Shown piece by piece: positions 36,290 through 49,634 of a DNA stretch of 64,000 bases. Position 1 is the stretch's first letter, and every line of letters begins with the position of its first letter. Origin of the DNA: Hyunsoonleella pacifica (lineage in GTDB: Bacteria > Bacteroidota > Bacteroidia > Flavobacteriales > Flavobacteriaceae); assembly GCF_004310335.1 (NCBI RefSeq), contig NZ_SIRS01000004.1, forward strand, positions 1 through 64,000, in the 5' to 3' direction. The translations under genes and the position numbers were made by a program. The notes beneath the pieces were generated by a model. The model worked only from the letters and a program-made list of their open reading frames with translations. It searched no databases and had not been told where the DNA came from.

Positions 36290-38335
36290 TTAATCTGAAA
36301 TACCATGGGCTTCAAGTGTTTTTTTAAAGTCTGGATTATCTTTTAAATAACCAAAAAAATCGTACTGTTCCCTTCTAAAGGTTCGGGTTTGTTTATTTCT
36401 AATAGTATCTAAATGAAATAATACGCTATCTGTTTGTTTTAAGGCTGAAAAAACAACTGCTAATTGATGGCTTTTCTCTCTTGGGTGTGCATTTTTACGA
36501 ATGGAATCTAATATTCTGTATGCTAAAAGCGTATCGCCCACCTTAACATAACTATATCCCAAGAAGCGATTAAACACGTTTTGCTTTTTTACCATTTCTT
36601 TTAAATAAGGTATAGCTTTACTATATTTTTCTTGTGAGATGTACAAATTAAAATAGGATCTATCTATAACAAATTGATTGCTTTTACCATGTTGCTTTTG
36701 GGTTTTATCTAGTATTGCTTTTGCTCTATCGTATTCCTTATTTGCCATTAATGCTCTAACATAACTATTGGCTGTTGGAAAAGACAGTGGGTCTAACCTA
36801 TATGCTATTTCTGCTTGCTCAAGTTGCTTTTCATGTTGACTGGTATACATAAAAAATGTGGAGTATTGATGCCTTGCTGTTAAATCGTTGGGGGAGAGTT
36901 GAATTGCTCTTTGAAATGCTGTTTCGGCTGCTTCATAGTTCCCTTCAATATTATTTATAAGTCCCTTAACTGAGTAAATTCTAGAGATTTTGTCGGTTAT
37001 AGCTTCTGCTTTAGCAAGGTATTCCCTAGCAGATTGTGAAGCTTCATTAGGGTTTCTACGTGAATAATATGTTTCTAGATATATGGAATTTGCAATTTCT
37101 GCATAGGCTTCAGCATAATTTGGATCTAACGTAATGGCTTCCTTGTAAAGTATAATGCTTTTTGCTAAACTTTCTTTATTTCGCTTATCTGCTTCATTTC
37201 TACCCTCTAAAAACAGTTTGTATGCTTCAATGTTTTTAGTTGGTATTTCTGCCAATTCTTGCTGCTCTTCAAAGGATAAATTAATTTGAAGTGCATCTAC
37301 AATTTCCTTAGAAACTTCTGTTTGTAACCCAAATATACTTGTAAGTGTTTTATCATAGTTTTCGGCCCAAAGGTGTTCGTCGTTAGATGCATCAATTAAC
37401 TGTGCAGTTATTCTAATATCGTCTCCATATTTACGAATACTACCCTCTAGAATATAAGATACATCAAGTTCTTTGGCTATTTCCGGAATTGTTTTTTGAG
37501 TATTTTTATACTGCATTACAGAGGTTCTAGAAATAACACGCAGGTTTTTTAATTTAGAGAGTTGCGTGAGTATATCTTCAGTAACCCCATCCCTAAAAAA
37601 TTCTGAATCTTTCTCTGAACTTAAATTATCAAAAGGTAATACAGCAATAGATAGGTCTTTAGGAGTATTATCGTTAACCGTGAATTTTACAGAATCTATA
37701 TTTAGCACAAATGCTAAAAAGACAACAAGTGCTACTATAATAGCAACATTTCGTTTCTTCTTAAAGAATGGTGTTTTAGATTTTTCTTTTTTTAACTTAA
37801 GCTTACCCTTTATCTCTTCTTTTTTAGGCACAACTAACCCATCGTTAGCAATAGCAAAAAGAGGCATAGCGTCATCAACATTTTTAAGCTCATAAGCATC
37901 TAAAAATTTAGTTTTAATATGTTGATGACTCCTTATTTGGTCATGTACCTTATCAGAAATTAAAACACTACCGGAAACTGCACAAGATTCTATCCTAGAA
38001 GTTACATTAACAGCATCTCCAATAATATCATCTTCAGATTGAATGATATCCCCAACATGAATACCTATACGAACGGGAATTTTGGGTTCTTGCAGAAATG
38101 CTTGCTGAAGTTCTATAGCACAGTCTACAGCCTCTACCGTACTTTTAAAAATGCTTAAAGTACCATCTCCAAAATATTGAATAATTTTGCCATTATACGC
38201 CTCAGTAGTAATTTCAAAAGTATTTCTATGTCGTTTTCGTATTGCTACAGCTTCCTTTTCGTTATGTTGCATCAAAGAGGTATAGCCCTCTATATCGGTA
38301 AACATAATTGCTGCGAGTTGCCGGTTGGATGACAT
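36290..38335 (-). CDS. Class III nucleotide cyclase with TolB-like and TPR domains
   Basis: This 681-residue protein has an N-terminal class III cyclase domain (about 5-175). Metal-binding aspartates are in FTDIEGYTSLM and YFGDGTLSIF, and the transition-state Asn/Arg pair is in GDAVNVTSRIE. A transmembrane helix follows (about 194-212), then a TolB/FlgO-like domain (about 228-350; IAVLPFDNLSSEKDSEFFRDG) and TPRs (about 365-640). The position usually held by an adenine-specifying Lys (before the GDG loop) is Gln (KIIQYFGDG), so ATP or GTP preference is unclear. It is divergent, by 85 bases, from a cyclic-nucleotide-binding regulator, a probable functional partner. Confidence 0.9.
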   Translation of the reverse strand: MSSNRQLAAIMFTDIEGYTSLMQHNEKEAVAIRKRHRNTFEITTEAYNGKIIQYFGDGTLSIFKSTVEAVDCAIELQQAFLQEPKIPVRIGIHVGDIIQSEDDIIGDAVNVTSRIESCAVSGSVLISDKVHDQIRSHQHIKTKFLDAYELKNVDDAMPLFAIANDGLVVPKKEEIKGKLKLKKEKSKTPFFKKKRNVAIIVALVVFLAFVLNIDSVKFTVNDNTPKDLSIAVLPFDNLSSEKDSEFFRDGVTEDILTQLSKLKNLRVISRTSVMQYKNTQKTIPEIAKELDVSYILEGSIRKYGDDIRITAQLIDASNDEHLWAENYDKTLTSIFGLQTEVSKEIVDALQINLSFEEQQELAEIPTKNIEAYKLFLEGRNEADKRNKESLAKSIILYKEAITLDPNYAEAYAEIANSIYLETYYSRRNPNEASQSAREYLAKAEAITDKISRIYSVKGLINNIEGNYEAAETAFQRAIQLSPNDLTARHQYSTFFMYTSQHEKQLEQAEIAYRLDPLSFPTANSYVRALMANKEYDRAKAILDKTQKQHGKSNQFVIDRSYFNLYISQEKYSKAIPYLKEMVKKQNVFNRFLGYSYVKVGDTLLAYRILDSIRKNAHPREKSHQLAVVFSALKQTDSVLFHLDTIRNKQTRTFRREQYDFFGYLKDNPDFKKTLEAHGISD

Positions 38336-38420: not shown

Positions 38421-40259
38421 TTGAAAGTGACAGAAAGCCTTATAGAATTCTTATCTGATATTCCATTTTTCTCTGAAGTTTCAAAAGAATCGCTTCAACA
38501 TTTATGTGATAATACTACCGAAGAAATTTTTCTGAAAAGTGAAATTATTTTTGAGAAAAACACCATTGGAAATTCAATGTATGCTGTTTTAGAAGGCAAG
38601 GTAAAAGTGCACTATAAAAATCACATTTACGATACACTATCTAAAGGGGACTGCTTTGGAGAATATGCACTTATTGATAATGACACACGTTCTGCCTCTG
38701 TAACTGCTTTAGAAAAAACCAAAGTTTTAAAAATTGAACGTGATGATTTTTTGGATTTGCTACAACATGACAGCGGTTTTGCTCAAGGTATTTTATCTGT
38801 AATGATAAAGAGACATCGTGAATTAGATACCATACAAGAACGACTCGCTTCCTCTAAAATTGAAATTGAAAATGCCAATAGTAAATTAAGCGGTCTAGTT
38901 AATGGCGCTATGGATGCTATTATTATGTTTAATACTAATTTTAGAATTATACTCACTAACCCTTCAGCAAATAAACTATTAGAAAATGAAGATGTATTAC
39001 AACGTAATGTACTTTTCTTTTTTGATGCTGAAAGTGCTGATATAATTGAAAGGATTGTAAATGCAGAGGACAACAACAATACAGTAAACACGTATTTACC
39101 GAATATCATTAAGGTTATTGGTTCTAATAATACTGAGACTTTAAACGAAGGTACAATTAGTAAATACGGTTTAGATACTAATCCATTTTACACATTAATT
39201 TTAAGAAATATTGAAGAGCGCCTGATTGCGGAGAATAAAATTAGTTTACTTACCAAGCAAACAGAATATCTGGAGAAAGAAATTAATGAGCTTACCAGTA
39301 GTTATGGCATTATAGCTGAAAACAAAAAAATGAAAGCTACTTTAAATCTTATCCATCAAGTAGCTAAAACTGACGCTACTGTTTTAATTCATGGAGAGAC
39401 GGGGACTGGTAAAGAATTAGTTGCTCGAGCTATACATAAGGAAAGTAATAGAAACAACAAGCCATTAATTCGCATTAACTGTGGCGCAATTCCATCTAAT
39501 CTCATTGAAAGTGAATTATTTGGCCACAAAAAAGGAGCTTTCACTGGTGCTAACGTAGACAGAAAAGGACGATTTTTATTAGCTGATAAGGGCACTATAT
39601 TTTTAGATGAAATTGGGGAAATGCCTTTAGAGTTACAGCCTAAATTATTGCGCATTATTCAAGAAGGGGAATTTGATCCTGTTGGAAGTTCGGAAACTAT
39701 TAAAGTTGATGTGAGAATTATTGCTGCTACTCACAGAAATCTTTTTAAATTTTCTAAAGAAGGAAAGTTTAGAGAAGATTTATATTATAGATTAAACGTA
39801 TTTCCGATAGAAGTCCCTGCGCTCAGAGAACGAGGGAGTGATATTTGTTCGATAGCTCAAGAAATGATACAACAGTTTTCTAAAAAACTTAATAAACAAA
39901 TTATTGCTTTAACAGACAATGATAAATCCTTATTAAATAACTACAAATGGCCAGGAAATGTTAGAGAGCTTCAAAATTTAGTGGAACGTGCTGTAATTGT
40001 ATCCAAACATGGAAAAACTAATTGGCAGACTATAATTCCTGATAATTCTGAGACTAACTTTATGCAAAGAGAAGCTCAAAAAGATAGAATATTGACTTCT
40101 AAAGAATTAGCTTCTTTAGAAAAAGAGAATATCTTAAAGGCTCTAAGACAAACCAAATGGAAAATCTCTGGCTCAAATGGAGCTGCTGAATTGTTACAGC
40201 TTCCTCCAACTACATTAGCTTCTAGAATTAAAGCACTAAAAATAGAACGACCAATTTAA
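38421..40259 (+). CDS. Sigma54-dependent activator with cyclic-nucleotide-binding, PAS and Fis-type domains
   Basis: This 612-residue transcription activator has four parts. Residues about 9-125 form a cNMP-binding domain with an intact phosphate-binding cassette (FGEYALIDNDTRSASV). Residues about 150-260 are PAS-like. Residues about 300-530 form an AAA+ domain with Walker A (GETGTGKE, about residue 324), the sigma54-contacting GAFTGA loop (about 372) and Walker B (GTIFLDEIGEM). Residues about 570-610 carry a Fis-type helix-turn-helix. It should open sigma54 promoters in response to a cyclic nucleotide. The start is a TTG just after a promoter element; no ATG exists before the first domain. 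The AraC gene follows 14 bases later. Confidence 0.9.
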   Translation: MKVTESLIEFLSDIPFFSEVSKESLQHLCDNTTEEIFLKSEIIFEKNTIGNSMYAVLEGKVKVHYKNHIYDTLSKGDCFGEYALIDNDTRSASVTALEKTKVLKIERDDFLDLLQHDSGFAQGILSVMIKRHRELDTIQERLASSKIEIENANSKLSGLVNGAMDAIIMFNTNFRIILTNPSANKLLENEDVLQRNVLFFFDAESADIIERIVNAEDNNNTVNTYLPNIIKVIGSNNTETLNEGTISKYGLDTNPFYTLILRNIEERLIAENKISLLTKQTEYLEKEINELTSSYGIIAENKKMKATLNLIHQVAKTDATVLIHGETGTGKELVARAIHKESNRNNKPLIRINCGAIPSNLIESELFGHKKGAFTGANVDRKGRFLLADKGTIFLDEIGEMPLELQPKLLRIIQEGEFDPVGSSETIKVDVRIIAATHRNLFKFSKEGKFREDLYYRLNVFPIEVPALRERGSDICSIAQEMIQQFSKKLNKQIIALTDNDKSLLNNYKWPGNVRELQNLVERAVIVSKHGKTNWQTIIPDNSETNFMQREAQKDRILTSKELASLEKENILKALRQTKWKISGSNGAAELLQLPPTTLASRIKALKIERPI

Positions 40260-40273
40260 AACGAACTCTTAAA

Positions 40274-41143
40274 ATGGCTATTGATGTTTACAATCATTTT
40301 TTAAAACATCCACGTTATAACAAGCTTGTAGGTAATGACTTTTTGTTGGTTGAGTATAAATGCCCATTGGAAGTAGAGAATTTTAAATTATGGACAGATA
40401 CGCCTTTTATTACTTACGTTATTAGTGGACAAAAAGATTGGACAGCACTAGAAGGTACTTATACTATAAAAAAAGGAGAAGCCTTATTTATTAATAAAGG
40501 GGTGTATAATACCAAACAATATTTTGAAGTAGATTATTGCGTTATGCTATTTTTTATTACAGATGATTTTATCAGACGTTTTGTTAAAACCAATAAAGAT
40601 GTTCTAAAAACACCTATTACAAATAATCCTAAGGCGCAAATATTCCCGATACAAGTAGAAGATTCATTAAATTCATTATTCCTTTCTGTTTTTAATTACA
40701 TGAATCAAGGCAATAATATTCCTAAAGACTTAGTAGAAATAAAATTCAGGGAGTTACTATTTAATATTGCCTTAAACCCTAGCAACCAAAATTTAATAAG
40801 CTTTTTTAAATCTCTTACGCATACAGAAAAAACATTATTAAATGATGTTATGATGAAGAATTTTCATTGCGATTTAAAACTTGAAGACTATGCGCGTATC
40901 TACGGAAAAAGCCTATCAACTTTCAAGAGAGATTTCCAAAATTATTATAACGAAACTCCCAGAAAATGGCTAAACACAAAACGTCTAGAATACGCTAAAA
41001 CCCTACTTGAAAATCCAGAACTCAACATTAATGATGTATGCTTTGAAAGTGGATTTAAAAATGTTGCTCATTTTAATCGCAGTTTCAAGGAGAAATACCA
41101 ATATCCTCCAAATCAATATCGTAAACTATTTATAAATAAATAA
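40274..41143 (+). CDS. AraC family transcriptional regulator
   Basis: This 289-residue protein has an N-terminal cupin-like sensing domain (FITYVISGQKDWTALEGTYTIKKGEALFINKGVY) and a C-terminal double helix-turn-helix (about 190-285; LEDYARIYGKSLSTFKRDFQ and INDVCFESGFKNVAHFNRSFKEKY, then PPNQYRK). It begins 14 bases after the sigma54 activator and is probably in the same operon. Direct repeats 21 bp apart lie just downstream, before the next gene, and could be its binding sites. Confidence 0.92.
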   Translation: MAIDVYNHFLKHPRYNKLVGNDFLLVEYKCPLEVENFKLWTDTPFITYVISGQKDWTALEGTYTIKKGEALFINKGVYNTKQYFEVDYCVMLFFITDDFIRRFVKTNKDVLKTPITNNPKAQIFPIQVEDSLNSLFLSVFNYMNQGNNIPKDLVEIKFRELLFNIALNPSNQNLISFFKSLTHTEKTLLNDVMMKNFHCDLKLEDYARIYGKSLSTFKRDFQNYYNETPRKWLNTKRLEYAKTLLENPELNINDVCFESGFKNVAHFNRSFKEKYQYPPNQYRKLFINK

Positions 41144-41972: not shown

Positions 41973-41989
41973 TTGGCACGCCAATAGCA
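41973..41989 (+). promoter_or_regulatory. Sigma54 (-24/-12) promoter of the OsmC gene
   Basis: TTGGCACGCCAATAGCA matches the sigma54 consensus TTGGCACGnnnnTTGCA with one mismatch in the -12 box and keeps the essential GG-N10-GC spacing. It would give a leader of about 47 bases before the ATG at 42048. Confidence 0.7.
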
Positions 41990-42047: not shown

Positions 42048-42602
42048 ATGATTACAACAGCAAATGTAAAAAACGGAGTAAACGTAGATCAATTAGTTGA
42101 AACTATCAACCACATTCAAGAGCAACCAGAATTAGCAAAATTTGAATTTAGAGCTAAAAATAACTGGATTGATGGAGGGCATTGTGTATCTAGTATTAAA
42201 AGTTTTTATGGTGCAGGACAAGAAGACACCACTAGAGAAGAGACCTTTACTATGGAATGCAGCCACCCACAAGTATTACTAGGAGCTGACGAAGCTGCAA
42301 CTCCACCAGAAGTTTTATTACACGCATTAAGCTCTTGTTTAACTGGGGCAATGGTATATCATGCCGCTGCAAACGGTGTTGATATTGAGGGAGCAGAATC
42401 TAGCATTCAAGGTAACGCGGATTTACATGGCTTCTTAGGACTTGATCCTGAAGTACGTATGGGGTTTGATGGCATCAAATTCAAATTACGTGTAAAATCT
42501 GATGCTACAGCAGAGCAATTAGAAAACTTTGCTAAGTTCTCTCCTGTATTTGATATGATTAGCAACCCTACTCCTATTTCAATTGAAATAGTAAAACAGT
42601 AG
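42048..42602 (+). CDS. OsmC family protein
   Basis: This 184-residue protein of the OsmC/Ohr superfamily, whose members are thiol-dependent peroxidases or stress proteins, has GGHCVSSIKSFYGAGQED, then EVLLHALSSCLTGAMVYHAAANGV with one reactive-type cysteine in the helix, and a C-terminal SPVFDMISNPTPISIEIV. The second classic Ohr cysteine position is not clear, so it fits the broader OsmC group more than Ohr. Upstream are a sigma54 promoter and paired activator-like sites. A strong terminator separates it from nifJ. Confidence 0.9.
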   Translation: MITTANVKNGVNVDQLVETINHIQEQPELAKFEFRAKNNWIDGGHCVSSIKSFYGAGQEDTTREETFTMECSHPQVLLGADEAATPPEVLLHALSSCLTGAMVYHAAANGVDIEGAESSIQGNADLHGFLGLDPEVRMGFDGIKFKLRVKSDATAEQLENFAKFSPVFDMISNPTPISIEIVKQ

Positions 42603-42614
42603 AGTCTCATTTAG

Positions 42615-42651
42615 AAAAGGCTACTCCAAAGTTATGGAAGTAGCCTTTTTT
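42615..42651 (+). terminator. Terminator of the OsmC gene
   Basis: AAAAGGCTACT pairs with AGTAGCCTTTT, extended by CC/GG around a one-base bulge, and runs into six T. Confidence 0.85.
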
Positions 42652-42687: not shown

Positions 42688-45600
42688 ATGAAAGCTTTCA
42701 TGAAAAGTACCCTAAACGCAAACCAGGCTGTAGCTCAAATTGCATACAAAACAAATGAGGTTTTTCCTATTTACCCAATCACACCTACTTCAGAAATGAG
42801 TGAGTTGGTAGAACAATGGAGTGCTGAAAACAAGAAGAATATCTTTGGCAGTAACACTTCTGTATTTCAAATGCAAAGCGAAGCTGGTGTTGCTGGCGCA
42901 ATGCATGGCGCATTACAAACAGGAAGTTTATCATCAACTTTTACTGCATCCCAAGGCTTACTATTAATGCTCCCAAACATGTATAAAATTGCAGGAGAAC
43001 TCACGCCAAACGTTATTCATGTAACTACAAGAAGTATTGCAACACATGCGCTATCTGTCTTTGGTGACCATAGTGATATCATGGCAGTAAGACAATCAGG
43101 TTACGCGATGTTAGGTAGCGCATCAGTTCAAGAAGCTCATGATTTTGCTTTAATCTCACAAGCAACTTCTTTAGAATCTTCAATTCCTTTTATTCATTTT
43201 TTTGATGGTTTTAGAACTTCTCATGAAATCAACAATATTGAAATTATCAATGACGACCTGATTCAATCTATAATAAGTCAAAATAAAATTAAACAGCATA
43301 GAGATAGGGCTTTAAATCCAAATACTCCTGTTTTAAGAGGAACTTCCCAAGGACCAGACGTGTTCTTTCAAAGTAGAGAAGCTATCAATCCTTTTTATGA
43401 CGTATGCGCTGATACTGTTGAAAATATTATGAATCAGTTCGCCACATTAACAGGAAGGCATTATAGGCTATTTGACTATGTTGGTCATTTAAAAGCTGAA
43501 CAGATAATCATCTCAATAGCATCCTCAACTGAAACAATTGAAACCACCATAAATCAACTCAATACACAAGGAGAAAGACTAGGGCTTATAAAAGTTAGAC
43601 TATTTAGGCCTTTTAGCACAAAACACCTTCTTGCTGCTTTACCAAAATCAGTAAAATCCATAGCCGTTTTAGACAGAACAAAAGAACCAGGTTCTGCAGG
43701 AGAGCCTTTATATTTAGATGTACTTAAATCTATTTCAGAGGCATTTCAAAATAACCAACTAGCCATTTTTCCTAAAGTTATTGGTGGTAGATATGGCTTA
43801 TCTTCAAAAGAATTCACGCCTGCAATGGTTAATGCCATATTCAATAATCTAAAACTAGACCATCCTAAAAACAACTTCACTATCGGTATTAACGATGATG
43901 TAAACCATTTAAGCTTAGAGTACACTGAAAACCTCAACTTAAAAAACAATATGTATCAAGCTATTTTTTATCAGGAAAAAGAAGTTAATGATAGCTTTTC
44001 TAATACCCTAGAACATATTGGCAGCAAAGAAAACACTTATATTCAAGGATATACCGAATGCAATTATAAAAAATCAAATTCATATCATATTGTTCATTTA
44101 AGAATAGATAATCAGCCTATTAAAGCACCATATCTTATAACCCAAGCTGATTTTATAGGTTTTCAAAACGCATACTCTACTTTAAACGACGATATATTAA
44201 ATAAACTGAGTGTTAAGGGAAAATTATTAATTAATTCTTCACAAACACCTAAAGCTTTTTGGAAGTCTTTATCAGCTGAACACCAAAAACTTATAATTAA
44301 CAAACATATTGATGTATTTATAGTAAATATAAACGAACTCAAGGCAAATCGAGTTATAACAAATCATTCTATATCTGAATTTCATGCTTGCTTTTTAGCC
44401 TTAACAAAAGATATCCATACAGACAATGATTTCACACATTTAAATGAATTCATTCATAAAGTAAACACTACTACATCCAAAGCGGTACATAAAAAAATAC
44501 CATTTGAGAATACTTTAAATAATGGTCTACTAGGAAAATTACTATCAAATAAAAGCAATGATATTCCTGTAAGTCTACTTCCTGTAGATGGTACTTTTCC
44601 AACGGACACATCACAATATAACCCAATTCAAAGTAATACATACGTACCAAATTGGAATACAGATTTATGCTCACAATGCGGTGCATGTAGCATGGCTTGT
44701 CCTCAAGCGGCATTACGAATTAAAGTTTACGACAGCACATATAAGAATGATGCTCCAAAAACTTTAAAATCCATAATTTCTAAAGATTTCAATTTAATGA
44801 ATTACACTATTCAAATACATCCAGAACAATGTAATGGGTGCAATAACTGTGTAGATGCATGTTCTGTAAAAGCATTGAAACTTATCAAAAGAGAAAATAC
44901 TCAAGACGAAAAAAATAACTGGAATTACTTTGCAACCATACCTGAATTTAACCGAGTAAAAATCGATGTTTCAAAAGTTAGTCAACAACAATTACAAGAA
45001 CCTCTATTTAAATATTCAAGTGGTGTTGAAGGTTGTGGAGAGGCGCCTTATCTTAAATTGATGTCTCAACTATTTGGAGACAGACTATTAATAGCTAATG
45101 CAACTGGAGCCAGCTCAATTTTTGGAGGCGCTTTACCCACAACACCTTGGGCAAAAAATAAAAATGGACAAGGTCCTGCTTGGTCAAACTCACTATTTGA
45201 AGATAATGCTGAGTTTGGTTTAGGTTTTAGAATGTCTTTAAATCAAAAGGAAAAATATGCTAAACATCTCCTAAAAACTTTAAACCCTAAACTAAGCCCT
45301 GATTTAGTTAATTCAATTTTAAATGCAAAACAATGTAACGAAACTGAAATAGACGAACAACGGAAAAATATTGAACTGCTAAATGATAAATTATCTAAAA
45401 TCAATTCCAAAGAAGCCAAACAGCTTTTAAATTTATCAGAGTATCTTATTAAAAAAAGTGTATGGATTGTTGGTGGTGACGGTTGGGCTTATGATATTGG
45501 ATTTGGAGGCTTAGATCACGTCATAGCTTTAGGAGTAAACGTAAACATTTTAGTTTTAGATAATGAGGTTTATGACAATACAGGTGCGCAAGCATCGAAA

Positions 45601-46113
45601 TCTACGCCGTTTGGAGCGGAAGCAAAATTTGCTTTCAATGGTAAACATAAACAAAAAAAAGATTTGGGCGCTTTAGCAATGACCTATAATAATGTTTATG
45701 TGGCATCGGTTGCTATTGGAGCAAATCAAGAACAAACATTGCAAGTATTTAATGAAGCTGAAAGTTTTAATGGACCTTCAATAATTATAGCATATTGCCA
45801 CAGTGACTCTCATGGTATTGATATGAAACATCCAAGCAAGTATCATAAAGCGGCAGTAAACTCTGGACAATGGTTGTTATATAGAAACGATCCTAGACGC
45901 TTAAAGAAAAATTTACCTCCTTTACAGTTAGATTCAAATACACCTTCAATTAAAATTAAGGATTATATGAAATTAGAACAACGATTTGTAAAACATATAA
46001 ATTCTAATGAGGTAAATACTAACATAGATGATATTCAAAAACAAATTAATATTAGATTAAAAAAGTATAAGACACTTTCAAATAATATACCTCATAAAAC
46101 CTATTCAGGGTAA
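42688..46113 (+). CDS. nifJ: NifJ-type pyruvate:ferredoxin (flavodoxin) oxidoreductase, atypical: proximal cluster ligands lost
   Basis: This 1141-residue single-chain 2-oxoacid oxidoreductase has all domains in order. The pyruvate-binding residues Thr32 (PITPTS), Glu65 (QSEAG) and Arg115 (VTTRS) are kept. The ferredoxin-like domain has two complete 4Fe-4S motifs (Cys661/664/667/671 and 715/718/721/725), and the C-terminal thiamine-diphosphate domain has GGDGWAYDIG. The four cysteines that bind the proximal cluster in Desulfovibrio africanus PFOR (812, 815, 840, 1071) align, with identical spacing, to Val780, Cys783, Ala808 and Ser1039. Three of the four ligands are therefore absent, and electron flow from thiamine to the other clusters should be impaired or rerouted. 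Family assignment is firm; activity is uncertain. Confidence 0.93.
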   Translation: MKAFMKSTLNANQAVAQIAYKTNEVFPIYPITPTSEMSELVEQWSAENKKNIFGSNTSVFQMQSEAGVAGAMHGALQTGSLSSTFTASQGLLLMLPNMYKIAGELTPNVIHVTTRSIATHALSVFGDHSDIMAVRQSGYAMLGSASVQEAHDFALISQATSLESSIPFIHFFDGFRTSHEINNIEIINDDLIQSIISQNKIKQHRDRALNPNTPVLRGTSQGPDVFFQSREAINPFYDVCADTVENIMNQFATLTGRHYRLFDYVGHLKAEQIIISIASSTETIETTINQLNTQGERLGLIKVRLFRPFSTKHLLAALPKSVKSIAVLDRTKEPGSAGEPLYLDVLKSISEAFQNNQLAIFPKVIGGRYGLSSKEFTPAMVNAIFNNLKLDHPKNNFTIGINDDVNHLSLEYTENLNLKNNMYQAIFYQEKEVNDSFSNTLEHIGSKENTYIQGYTECNYKKSNSYHIVHLRIDNQPIKAPYLITQADFIGFQNAYSTLNDDILNKLSVKGKLLINSSQTPKAFWKSLSAEHQKLIINKHIDVFIVNINELKANRVITNHSISEFHACFLALTKDIHTDNDFTHLNEFIHKVNTTTSKAVHKKIPFENTLNNGLLGKLLSNKSNDIPVSLLPVDGTFPTDTSQYNPIQSNTYVPNWNTDLCSQCGACSMACPQAALRIKVYDSTYKNDAPKTLKSIISKDFNLMNYTIQIHPEQCNGCNNCVDACSVKALKLIKRENTQDEKNNWNYFATIPEFNRVKIDVSKVSQQQLQEPLFKYSSGVEGCGEAPYLKLMSQLFGDRLLIANATGASSIFGGALPTTPWAKNKNGQGPAWSNSLFEDNAEFGLGFRMSLNQKEKYAKHLLKTLNPKLSPDLVNSILNAKQCNETEIDEQRKNIELLNDKLSKINSKEAKQLLNLSEYLIKKSVWIVGGDGWAYDIGFGGLDHVIALGVNVNILVLDNEVYDNTGAQASKSTPFGAEAKFAFNGKHKQKKDLGALAMTYNNVYVASVAIGANQEQTLQVFNEAESFNGPSIIIAYCHSDSHGIDMKHPSKYHKAAVNSGQWLLYRNDPRRLKKNLPPLQLDSNTPSIKIKDYMKLEQRFVKHINSNEVNTNIDDIQKQINIRLKKYKTLSNNIPHKTYSG

Positions 46114-47532: not shown

Positions 47533-48585
47533 ATGAAATTTATTATTACCCTCTCTCTATTAACACTTGTTGGTACTTGTGCCACTCCAAAATATACAGC
47601 TAGGATTGAAAATTTAAAGTCTAGTATCAAAATTATAGACAGTAGTTTGGTCACGAAATATTCAAAGACTATTACTTCTGAAGAACTTAAAGAACACCTA
47701 TACAAATTTGCTTCAAAAGAATTTGAAGGTAGAATGACAGGGGAACCTGGCCATAAGTTAGCTGCTGAGTTTGTAAAATCTTACTACATTAACTTAGGTA
47801 TTCCCTCCCCTTTTGTAAGCGACAATTATTATCAAGGAATTCCAGAATCTTATTTTCCTAAAGACATAAAAGCATCTGAAAATGTTTTGGCTTATATAGA
47901 GGGATCTGAAAAACCAGAAGAAATCTTAGTTTTATCAGCTCATTTAGATCATGAAGGAATTCAAAAAGGCAAAATATATTATGGAGCAGATGATAACGGT
48001 TCTGGAACTGTAGCTCTACTTGAAATAGCTGAAGCTTTTAAAATGGCCGCCAAAAATGGCTACCGACCAAAGCGAAGTATCCTATTTGCCCATTTTACTG
48101 CTGAAGAAATTGGTAAATACGGTTCAGAATTTTATACTGAAAACCCTGTTTTTCCTTTAGAAAATACCATTACCAATTTAAATATTGATATGATTGGTAG
48201 AGTTGATGACAGACACTCTGAAGAAGATGATAACTACATCTATTTAATAGGCTCTGACCGACTGAGTAAAGAATTACATTATACCTCTGAAGCTGTTCAA
48301 AAAGCCTATGTAGACATTAACTTAGATTATAAGTTTAATGCAATAAACGACCACAATAATTATTACACCAGATCAGATCAATACAACTTTGCTAAAAAAG
48401 GTATTCCTGTAATTTTCTATTTTAGTGGTGTACATGAAGATTATTCTGAGCCTACAGATACTCCAGATAAAATAAATTATGAGTTATTAGCAAAACGAAC
48501 TAAACTAATTTTTGCAACAACATGGCAATTGGTAAATCAAGATAAACGTGTTGCAATTGATGAAAATAGTATATTTTTAAATTAA
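47533..48585 (+). CDS. M28 family metallopeptidase, lipoprotein (copy 1)
   Basis: This 350-residue zinc aminopeptidase-like protein has a probable lipoprotein signal (cysteine at about residue 16, LVGTC). Metal ligands and catalytic residues are visible: SAHLDHEG (His, Asp), GADDNGSGT, FTAEEIGKYGS (Glu-Glu), NLNIDMIGRVDD (Asp) and the C-terminal His in SGVHEDYSEPTDTPDK. It probably removes N-terminal residues from peptides outside the inner membrane. A closely similar gene follows 26 bases later. Confidence 0.9.
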   Translation: MKFIITLSLLTLVGTCATPKYTARIENLKSSIKIIDSSLVTKYSKTITSEELKEHLYKFASKEFEGRMTGEPGHKLAAEFVKSYYINLGIPSPFVSDNYYQGIPESYFPKDIKASENVLAYIEGSEKPEEILVLSAHLDHEGIQKGKIYYGADDNGSGTVALLEIAEAFKMAAKNGYRPKRSILFAHFTAEEIGKYGSEFYTENPVFPLENTITNLNIDMIGRVDDRHSEEDDNYIYLIGSDRLSKELHYTSEAVQKAYVDINLDYKFNAINDHNNYYTRSDQYNFAKKGIPVIFYFSGVHEDYSEPTDTPDKINYELLAKRTKLIFATTWQLVNQDKRVAIDENSIFLN

Positions 48586-48611
48586 TTTTAGCTGCTCTAA
48601 AATTATAAATC

Positions 48612-49634
48612 ATGAAAAAGATAAATTTCTTCATAATATCAGTGTGTTTAATATTTCTAGTAATTAACTGTAAAAAAGCTAATAAAAGTACCAGTACCAG
48701 AAGAACTGTTAATCCAGAAATTTATGCAAAAACAATAACTGCCAGCGAACTAAAGGAAATGCTTTACACATATGCTTCAGATGAATTTGAAGGCAGAAAA
48801 ACAGGAGAGGTTGGACAAAAAAAAGCAGTTAATTTCATTAAACAACAGTATATTAACAATGGCATCTTATCCCCTATCGCTGAAGGCGACTATTTCCAAG
48901 AAATTCCTATGGAATATTTTAAAAATAGAGCAAATCATGCTTCTGAAAACGTAATAGCATATATTAAGGGTTATGAAAAGCCTGATGAAGTTTTAGTAAT
49001 ATCAGCTCACCTAGATCATATAGGAATTTCAAAAGACGGAGAAATTAATAACGGTGCTGACGATGATGGCTCTGGCACTGTAGGCATTTTAGAAATAGCT
49101 GAAGCTTTTAAAGCTGCTGAAAAAGATGGATTTGCACCAAGACGATCCATTGCATTCCTACATGTTACGGGAGAAGAAATAGGGTTATTTGGATCTAGAT
49201 ATTATGCTGATGAAGATCCTATTTTTCCTTTAAAGAATACTGTTGCTAATTTAAATATTGATATGATTGGCCGTGTGGATGAAAAACATGAAGGTAAGTC
49301 TAATTACTTATATTTAATAGGTTCTGATAGGTTAAGTAAAGAATTACATACTGTTTCGGACTCTATAAATAAAGCCACCTTGAATTTAGAATTTGATTAT
49401 ACATTTAATAGAAAAAATGACCCAAATCGATTTTACTACCGGTCTGATCATTACAATTTTGCTAAGCATAATATTCCTGTTATTTTTTATTTTAACGGAA
49501 CCCATGCTGATTATCATAAACCTAGTGATACTCCAGATAAAATAAACTACGAGTTTTTAGAAGCTAGAACTCAACTAATTTTTTACACAGCCTGGGAATT
49601 AGCAAATCGTAAAGAAAGAATTGAATTAGACTAG
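48612..49634 (+). CDS. M28 family metallopeptidase, lipoprotein (copy 2)
   Basis: This 340-residue paralogue of the preceding gene is collinear from FEGRKTGE to the end. The signal peptide ends in a lipobox (LVINC, cysteine at about residue 20). Zinc-site motifs are intact: SAHLDHIG, GADDDGSGT, VTGEEIGLFGS, NLNIDMIGRVDE and GTHADYHKPSDTPDK. Tandem duplication and 22-26 base gaps indicate one operon with its paralogue and the following hydrolase. Confidence 0.9.
   Translation: MKKINFFIISVCLIFLVINCKKANKSTSTRRTVNPEIYAKTITASELKEMLYTYASDEFEGRKTGEVGQKKAVNFIKQQYINNGILSPIAEGDYFQEIPMEYFKNRANHASENVIAYIKGYEKPDEVLVISAHLDHIGISKDGEINNGADDDGSGTVGILEIAEAFKAAEKDGFAPRRSIAFLHVTGEEIGLFGSRYYADEDPIFPLKNTVANLNIDMIGRVDEKHEGKSNYLYLIGSDRLSKELHTVSDSINKATLNLEFDYTFNRKNDPNRFYYRSDHYNFAKHNIPVIFYFNGTHADYHKPSDTPDKINYEFLEARTQLIFYTAWELANRKERIELD

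Follow-up and report, generated by a model that had tools for sequence, protein, structure and literature searches.

A NifJ-type protein of Flavobacteriaceae lacking three proximal-cluster cysteines and the coenzyme A loop

Introduction

Does a gene that looks like that of a pyruvate:ferredoxin oxidoreductase (PFOR) still encode one when most ligands of an iron-sulfur cluster are missing? The question is raised by nifJ in a stretch of 64,000 nucleotides from Hyunsoonleella pacifica (contig NZ_SIRS01000004.1, positions 1 to 64,000), referred to here as the window. In PFOR, electrons from the hydroxyethyl-thiamine pyrophosphate (TPP) intermediate pass first to the proximal cluster, and coenzyme A (CoA) takes up the acyl group. 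An initial annotation observed that three of the four cysteines of this cluster appeared to be replaced and proposed altered chemistry, the enzyme being oxygen-tolerant, non-oxidative or dependent on another electron route. Are the ligands really missing, and in how many relatives? Has anything else been lost? What remains of the catalytic centre and what might it do? Which genes accompany it? We consider these points in turn.

The proximal-cluster site

The open reading frame (ORF) runs from an ATG at 42688 to a stop codon that ends at 46113 and gives a full-length product of 1141 residues, in agreement with the coordinates, strand and frame first assigned to it. The product matches the solved PFORs of Moorella and Desulfovibrio africanus over nearly its whole length (phmmer, 38-40% identity) and scores 1345.5 bits against the NCBIfam model TIGR02176, pyruvate:ferredoxin (flavodoxin) oxidoreductase, for which the cut-off is 911.35. 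A Foldseek search with the predicted structure gives full-length matches to 6cip (4.7e-96) and 1b0p (7.2e-90) with TM values of about 0.8. The AlphaFold model itself (mean pLDDT 71.7, pTM 0.58) is poor at residues 87-126, 805-839 and 962-990, so that it backs only the overall fold and is uninformative on the proximal site.

Only one of the four proximal-cluster cysteines in domain VI is present, in the window protein and throughout its clade. Val780, Cys783 and Ala808 occupy the cysteine columns of the GACxGCGE and NATGCSS motifs when the protein is aligned by phmmer with the D. africanus and Moorella enzymes, and Ser1039 falls in the fourth ligand column of a MAFFT alignment with other NifJ proteins. 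The correspondence first proposed, of Cys812, Cys815, Cys840 and Cys1071 in D. africanus to Val780, Cys783, Ala808 and Ser1039, is confirmed.

Relatives were gathered from genomes of the family and from 80 loci, the best 80 of at least 583 confirmed relatives in genome contigs. The alignment comprised 128 non-redundant rows and the window; removal of one copy of the window and of a 386-residue fragment (L163) with unreadable ligands left 127 rows. Among these 127 distinct homologues, window included, 75 carry all four cysteines (CCCC) and 52 retain C783 alone, with no intermediates. As the rows were sorted into canonical and variant by the ligand pattern itself, what is informative is that intermediate rows are absent, together with the tree and with the CoA loop, which is lost separately (see below). 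The variant patterns are VCAS (37 rows), DCSS (4), ECAS (3), VCSS (3), ICAS (2), SCSS (1), ECS- (1) and VCA- (1), the last two being sequences that end before residue 1039. In a FastTree tree of the 127 rows a branch supported at 100% separates the 52 variants from the other 75, with the caveat that the tree is unrooted, includes the ligand columns, drew a long-branch warning and places L160, L158 and other long branches unsurely. The idea that the V/C/A/S pattern defines a clade is correct with respect to the branch, but the pattern is broader than was supposed, with V, I, D, E or S at position 780 and A or S at 808.

Sequencing error and a pseudogene can be ruled out as explanations, the losses being common to 52 rows and the ratio of nonsynonymous to synonymous substitution (dN/dS, NG86) being 0.09-0.15 in seven within-clade pairs of nifJ, two of which have dS above 1. 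The variant gene is maintained under purifying selection.

Might the protein nonetheless be an ordinary PFOR, the proximal cluster being bound by other ligands? The TIGR02176 score is what would be expected of one, C783 is invariant and a further cysteine, Cys1037, is located two residues from the lost fourth ligand in 40 of the 52 variants as opposed to one of 75 canonical proteins. However, two of the ligand positions are most often occupied by V780 and A808, which are unable to bind iron, C1037 is not conserved, being absent from 11 of the 51 variants readable at that point, and the CoA loop has been lost too. We regard this explanation as highly improbable. Ligation of a cluster through C783, C1037 and S1039 was considered separately and judged unlikely because C1037 varies. 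We note that Cys1037 may pair with C783.

Loss of the CoA loop

In the Moorella enzyme CoA is bound by a P-loop made up of domain III residues, as stated in PMC8091585. The strict form of this loop, GLGxDGTVGANK, occurs in none of the 52 variants compared with 66 of the 75 canonical proteins, and a relaxed form, GxGx[D/Q]G, in none compared with 74. The DSKK[S/A]G motif is likewise absent from all variants (71 of 75 canonical), and an EKR motif is left in two (68 of 75 canonical).

The changes are concentrated. There are 366 positions conserved at 95% or above in canonical NifJ, and 259 of them are kept at 90% or above in the variants; most of those lost are found in domain III or close to the ligands of the proximal cluster. 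With domain borders placed approximately, mean column conservation in variants and canonical proteins respectively is 0.54 and 0.71 in domain III and 0.58 and 0.66 in the short domain IV, set against 0.81 and 0.77 in domain I, 0.77 and 0.72 in domain II, 0.67 and 0.65 in domain V and 0.79 and 0.75 in domain VI. Conservation is thus lower in domains III and IV and not in I, II, V or VI: the CoA region has been freed from constraint and the rest of the protein has not.

The initial annotation had envisaged a selective loss of the cluster alone. This is wrong, as the CoA loop and most EKR motifs have gone too, while its broader suggestion of altered chemistry is supported by a group of 52 variants that form one clade. 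On the alignments, the proximal ligands and the CoA loop have been lost together in that clade, and the losses are well supported. Judged by its sequence, the variant is a member of the 2-oxoacid:ferredoxin oxidoreductase (OFOR) superfamily on a PFOR scaffold, and it should not be filed as PFOR since two defining features of PFOR that were tested, the proximal cysteines and the CoA P-loop, are missing. There is a practical consequence. TIGR02176 would label the variants PFOR and their hosts would be credited with an acetyl-CoA-forming and ferredoxin-reducing step that the variant proteins probably lack.

The retained residues and a possible function

The residues that bind pyruvate and TPP (Thr32, Glu65 and Arg115) are present in all 52 variants, as are, by alignment column, C783 and the eight cysteines of the ferredoxin domain; the GGDG motif and N964 are found in all 51 readable variants. 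The retention of the pyruvate-binding residues, the thiamine domain and both ferredoxin-type motifs had been pointed out at the start and extends across the clade. In domain V the paired CxxCxxCxxxC motifs with a linker of 30-60 residues are recognised in 51 of the 52 variants; in the remaining one, L160, the linker is shorter. At position 959 all 51 readable variants have asparagine and all 75 canonical proteins threonine. Asparagine is a usual magnesium ligand in TPP enzymes.

With the cluster ligands and CoA loop gone and the TPP site intact, the protein is most simply read as a TPP enzyme that is non-oxidative and independent of CoA. A non-oxidative 2-oxoacid decarboxylase, as a functional class, would have a TPP site and need neither an electron acceptor nor CoA; in this putative member the TPP site is present, whereas the CoA loop and three proximal ligands are absent. 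Our tentative proposal, to which we give not quite an even chance, is that variant NifJ is no working PFOR but a CoA-independent thiamine enzyme, most probably a non-oxidative 2-oxoacid decarboxylase or carboligase within a stress or thiol regulon. The protein would decarboxylate pyruvate or a similar 2-oxoacid on TPP and would make no acyl-CoA; the active aldehyde would then be released, or transferred in a carboligation, without oxidation. A cyclic-nucleotide-responsive sigma-54 activator would switch on nifJ together with OsmC, the product of the adjoining gene, under stress or in response to a thiol or sulfur signal. For the ferredoxin domain we assume either a structural role or a part in some other path for electrons, since its distance from TPP should be too great for electrons to pass efficiently once the proximal cluster is missing.

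A laboratory parallel is provided by the cluster-ligand mutants of Sulfolobus tokodaii StOFOR1, reportedly those of Yan et al. 2014. As described in two papers, these mutants lose acetyl-CoA formation and keep non-oxidative decarboxylation (PMC5020499, PMC9405506), and the non-oxidative decarboxylation by Sulfolobus OFOR requires neither cluster nor CoA (PMC5020499). Such mutants, with the loss of the P-loop, strengthen the non-oxidative option that had been raised for this gene. The oxygen-tolerant option is not borne out, since two 4Fe-4S motifs remain.

Several observations weigh against the proposal. That every one of the 52 variants retains the eight cysteines of the ferredoxin domain is hard to explain without electron flow. 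Several POR/PDC enzymes (pyruvate oxidoreductase/decarboxylases) of hyperthermophiles require CoA even to decarboxylate, according to PMC9405506, so that an enzyme which has lost the P-loop does not necessarily decarboxylate more readily. That the P-loop binds CoA is itself taken from a citing paper, a study of Thermoanaerobacter PFOR (PMC8091585). Finally, the conserved neighbours of nifJ, part of which were classified, include no recognisable aldehyde dehydrogenase, alcohol dehydrogenase or acetolactate gene.

The complete set of ferredoxin cysteines keeps two rivals alive, a CoA-free oxidative route and a transfer to OsmC that is considered below. In the former, electrons from TPP would reach the ferredoxin domain by domain motion, through a bound partner or through another cofactor, and the products would be acetate or an acyl group together with low-potential electrons, somewhat as in oxalate oxidoreductase. 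That enzyme works without CoA but retains its proximal cluster (PMC5020499). Invariant C783 and the enriched C1037 could form a redox couple close to where the cluster used to be, yet the latter is missing from the 11 variants mentioned above. The conserved neighbours classified include no recognisable gene for a carrier, flavin or otherwise, and hopping via a gained Tyr776 is unlikely at so low a potential. Overall we consider a CoA-independent oxidative enzyme unlikely.

Distribution

All 52 variants come from Flavobacteriaceae, including Algibacter, Flavivirga, Hanstruepera, Seonamhaeicola, Arenibacter, Allomuricauda and Flagellimonas. A NifJ relative is present in 102 of 397 genomes of the family: 39 have the variant (identified from the ligands in 38 and, for G181, from those on a contig with a matching end position, L061), 62 the canonical type (classed by identity, with ligands read for a few) and one an unassignable fragment (G345). 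The variant is patchy, occurring in four of the 12 genomes of the window's own genus. It occurs side by side with canonical NifJ in G187 (L158, L159), G227 (L153, L154) and G250 (L162, L161). In the genome of the window this gene is the sole POR_N match, and three E2 domains of 2-oxoacid dehydrogenases are encoded there, which accords with the non-oxidative reading. A sample of 395 genomes of the phylum, searched at E 1e-200, gave four matches, namely the window, the variant of G187, G159 and one genome of another family at 48% identity, the ligands of the last two being unread in this search; as 23 of the 24 genomes listed in the sample are of the window's own family, the result is hardly informative about other parts of the phylum.

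Three other genes deserve mention. The variant reading frame of G187 ends early, at 1037 residues. A degraded variant-like remnant with in-frame stops is found in L044 (G016:C3:181102-181721), about 1.2 kb before a TetH-like gene (182957). Genome G009, of the window's genus and without the variant, encodes a 1647-residue POR-type fusion with several ferredoxin domains (L043:5378-10321).

Neighbouring genes and signals

The features around nifJ are listed in Table 1. Of the 52 variant loci, 34 have longer flanks and, as L058 and L152 are the same, 33 distinct loci were compared.

Table 1. Features of the nifJ locus, numbered from the first nucleotide of the window
Feature	Position	Strand	Basis and remarks
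Class III nucleotidyl cyclase with TPR repeats	36290..38335	-	Pfam Guanylate_cyc (6e-13) and TPR; divergent from the activator gene
Activator with cyclic-nucleotide-binding, PAS, sigma-54 AAA+ and Fis helix-turn-helix domains	38421..40259	+	Pfam; listed start is TTG, true start may be downstream
Degenerate sigma-54-like -24/-12 site, TGGCACGCCAATAGCA	41974..41989	+	Upstream of osmC; TGGCAY-N7-GC
OsmC-family protein (Cys46, Cys97, S165)	42048..42602	+	Pfam OsmC PF02566 (1.8e-11); nearest solved chain 2opl (4.7e-44)
Terminator-like hairpin and T run	42615..42649	+	Sequence; between osmC and nifJ
Variant NifJ	42688..46113	+	PFOR scaffold; V780, A808 and S1039 replace three proximal ligands, C783 kept; domain III CoA P-loop gone

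In all 33 loci osmC is directly upstream of the variant nifJ on the same strand. The activator family is nearby in 31, the exceptions being L054 and L037, of which the latter starts at a contig end, and a cyclase of either of two cyclase-containing families is encoded in the examined stretch of 32; the cyclase of the window is a possible source of the cyclic nucleotide. The 75 canonical loci (mean 13 kb, some ending at contig ends) yield no relative of OsmC at E 1e-5 and an activator match in only two, at 37-47% identity. The association of OsmC with an activator of this kind points to a stress or thiol regulon.

The relaxed pattern TGGCAY-N7-GC, picked after inspection of the sequences, is found upstream of osmC in 25 of the 33 loci, whereas 0.04 of 34 would be expected from mononucleotide shuffling and about 0.5 from the rate over all loci (0.016 per 306 nt). 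The strict sigma-54 consensus (TTGC) is upstream of osmC in none of the 33 and the TGC form in 13. RpoN is encoded in the genome of the window. Between osmC and nifJ, the rule that identified the hairpin in the window finds one in 29 of 33 gaps, compared with 0.1 expected in shuffled sequences, so that nifJ, if reached by read-through, may be less strongly expressed.

Further downstream, two related ORFs of 350 and 340 residues lie in tandem at 47533-49634 of the window, and their family, F6, recurs downstream in 11 variant loci.

OsmC as a possible partner

The OsmC proteins of these operons carry distinctive residues. C46, C97 and S165, the serine of an SPVF motif, are present in 35 of 35 operon-type OsmC proteins. 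Position 46 is N or V in six aligned paralogues. C97 is the conserved cysteine of catalytic type, and Ser165 occupies what we take to be the position of the C-terminal resolving cysteine in classical OsmC/Ohr. A separate, paralogous OsmC family (L206, L207, L209, L210) is located beside an AraC regulator with 34-36% identity to the product of the window AraC gene at 40274-41143.

An OsmC of at least 66% identity is present in 41 of the 397 family genomes, namely all 39 carriers of the variant together with G410 and G252. In the two nearest genomes OsmC is 98% identical to that of the window while NifJ is 77-78% identical.

So close an association of the genes allows the second rival, in which C46/C97 of OsmC would stand in for CoA or a lipoyl domain, a disulfide or sulfenic acid being reductively acylated by hydroxyalkyl-TPP, and breakdown of a 2-oxoacid would be coupled to peroxide or thiol defence. 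The unbroken linkage of the two genes, the higher conservation of OsmC and the presence of C46 in the operon-type proteins, and not in the paralogues, all speak for it. Ohr proteins, which are related to OsmC, use lipoylated partners, and this counts in its favour also. On the other hand, G410 and G252 keep the activator and OsmC without variant NifJ, which indicates that OsmC has a function of its own, and the terminator-like hairpin suggests that NifJ and OsmC are produced in unequal amounts. We judge acyl transfer to OsmC improbable. Its most specific form, in which a stand-alone OsmC with an operon-specific cysteine would replace both CoA and the proximal 4Fe-4S cluster as acyl acceptor, seems to us more doubtful still. 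If it were true, 2-oxoacid breakdown would directly recharge a peroxide or thiol defence protein under cyclic-nucleotide and sigma-54 control.

The same two genomes bear on another explanation, that variant NifJ is a catalytically reduced scaffold, a protein that binds TPP and Fe-S clusters and serves as a sensor or structural partner of OsmC. OsmC with the activator but without NifJ, the patchy occurrence of the gene within the genus and the degraded remnant in G016 are consistent with a protein of this sort. The invariance of the substrate and TPP residues and the strength of selection are not, and a non-catalytic scaffold would have no need of T32, E65 and R115. We think this rather improbable, and our preference remains with the CoA-independent, non-oxidative TPP enzyme.

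Is there a link to sulfur? In G410 and G252 (L202, L203) the genes that come after the activator-OsmC pair encode a TsdA/SoxA-like cytochrome, a protein with weak similarity to TetH and a DsrE protein, with no variant nifJ, and this arrangement is possibly a sulfur branch of the same regulon. Some genomes have genes of these three kinds downstream, either of NifJ or of that pair. The TetH-like protein gives E 2.2e-5, which is under the cut-off of the model. A member of its family is encoded in 47 of 397 genomes, comprising 11 of the 39 variant carriers (in seven within about 2.3 kb of nifJ) and 36 of the 358 others; no match was obtained in the genome of the window. A tie between the variant nifJ and sulfur metabolism is at this stage a lead only.

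Comparison with known systems

In keeping with the opinion given at the outset, a search of open-licence papers in PubMed Central (PMC), seen in excerpt, found no described NifJ of this kind and no description of an OsmC/cyclic-nucleotide sigma-54 stress or thiol regulon. The excerpts of PMC12316311 and PMC6307301 mention neither an osmC-nifJ operon nor the variant. The clade constitutes a natural experiment in which the cluster ligands and the CoA loop have been lost while the thiamine site and ferredoxin domain are left, and in which the roles of the parts can be tested directly.

The closest counterparts are the homodimeric NifJ-type PFORs of Moorella (6cin, 6ciq) and D. africanus (1b0p, 7plm), which the variant resembles in domain order, in the residues that bind TPP and pyruvate and in the ferredoxin domain. 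It differs from them in that three proximal ligands and the CoA P-loop are missing, EKR is mostly lost, domain III has diverged and osmC is placed upstream. The StOFOR1 ligand mutants are a laboratory analogue of the missing cluster site, although, as reported, they are engineered, have two subunits and are without a ferredoxin domain. Oxalate oxidoreductase of Moorella (5c4i) belongs to the same superfamily and works without CoA (PMC5020499) but, unlike variant NifJ, has kept the proximal cluster and consists of three kinds of subunit. The operon OsmC, for its part, belongs to the same family as OsmC/Ohr, represented by its nearest solved chain, 2opl, and shares the conserved Cys97. It departs from the classical proteins in having serine where the resolving cysteine is presumed to be and in carrying Cys46, a residue unseen in the six paralogues.

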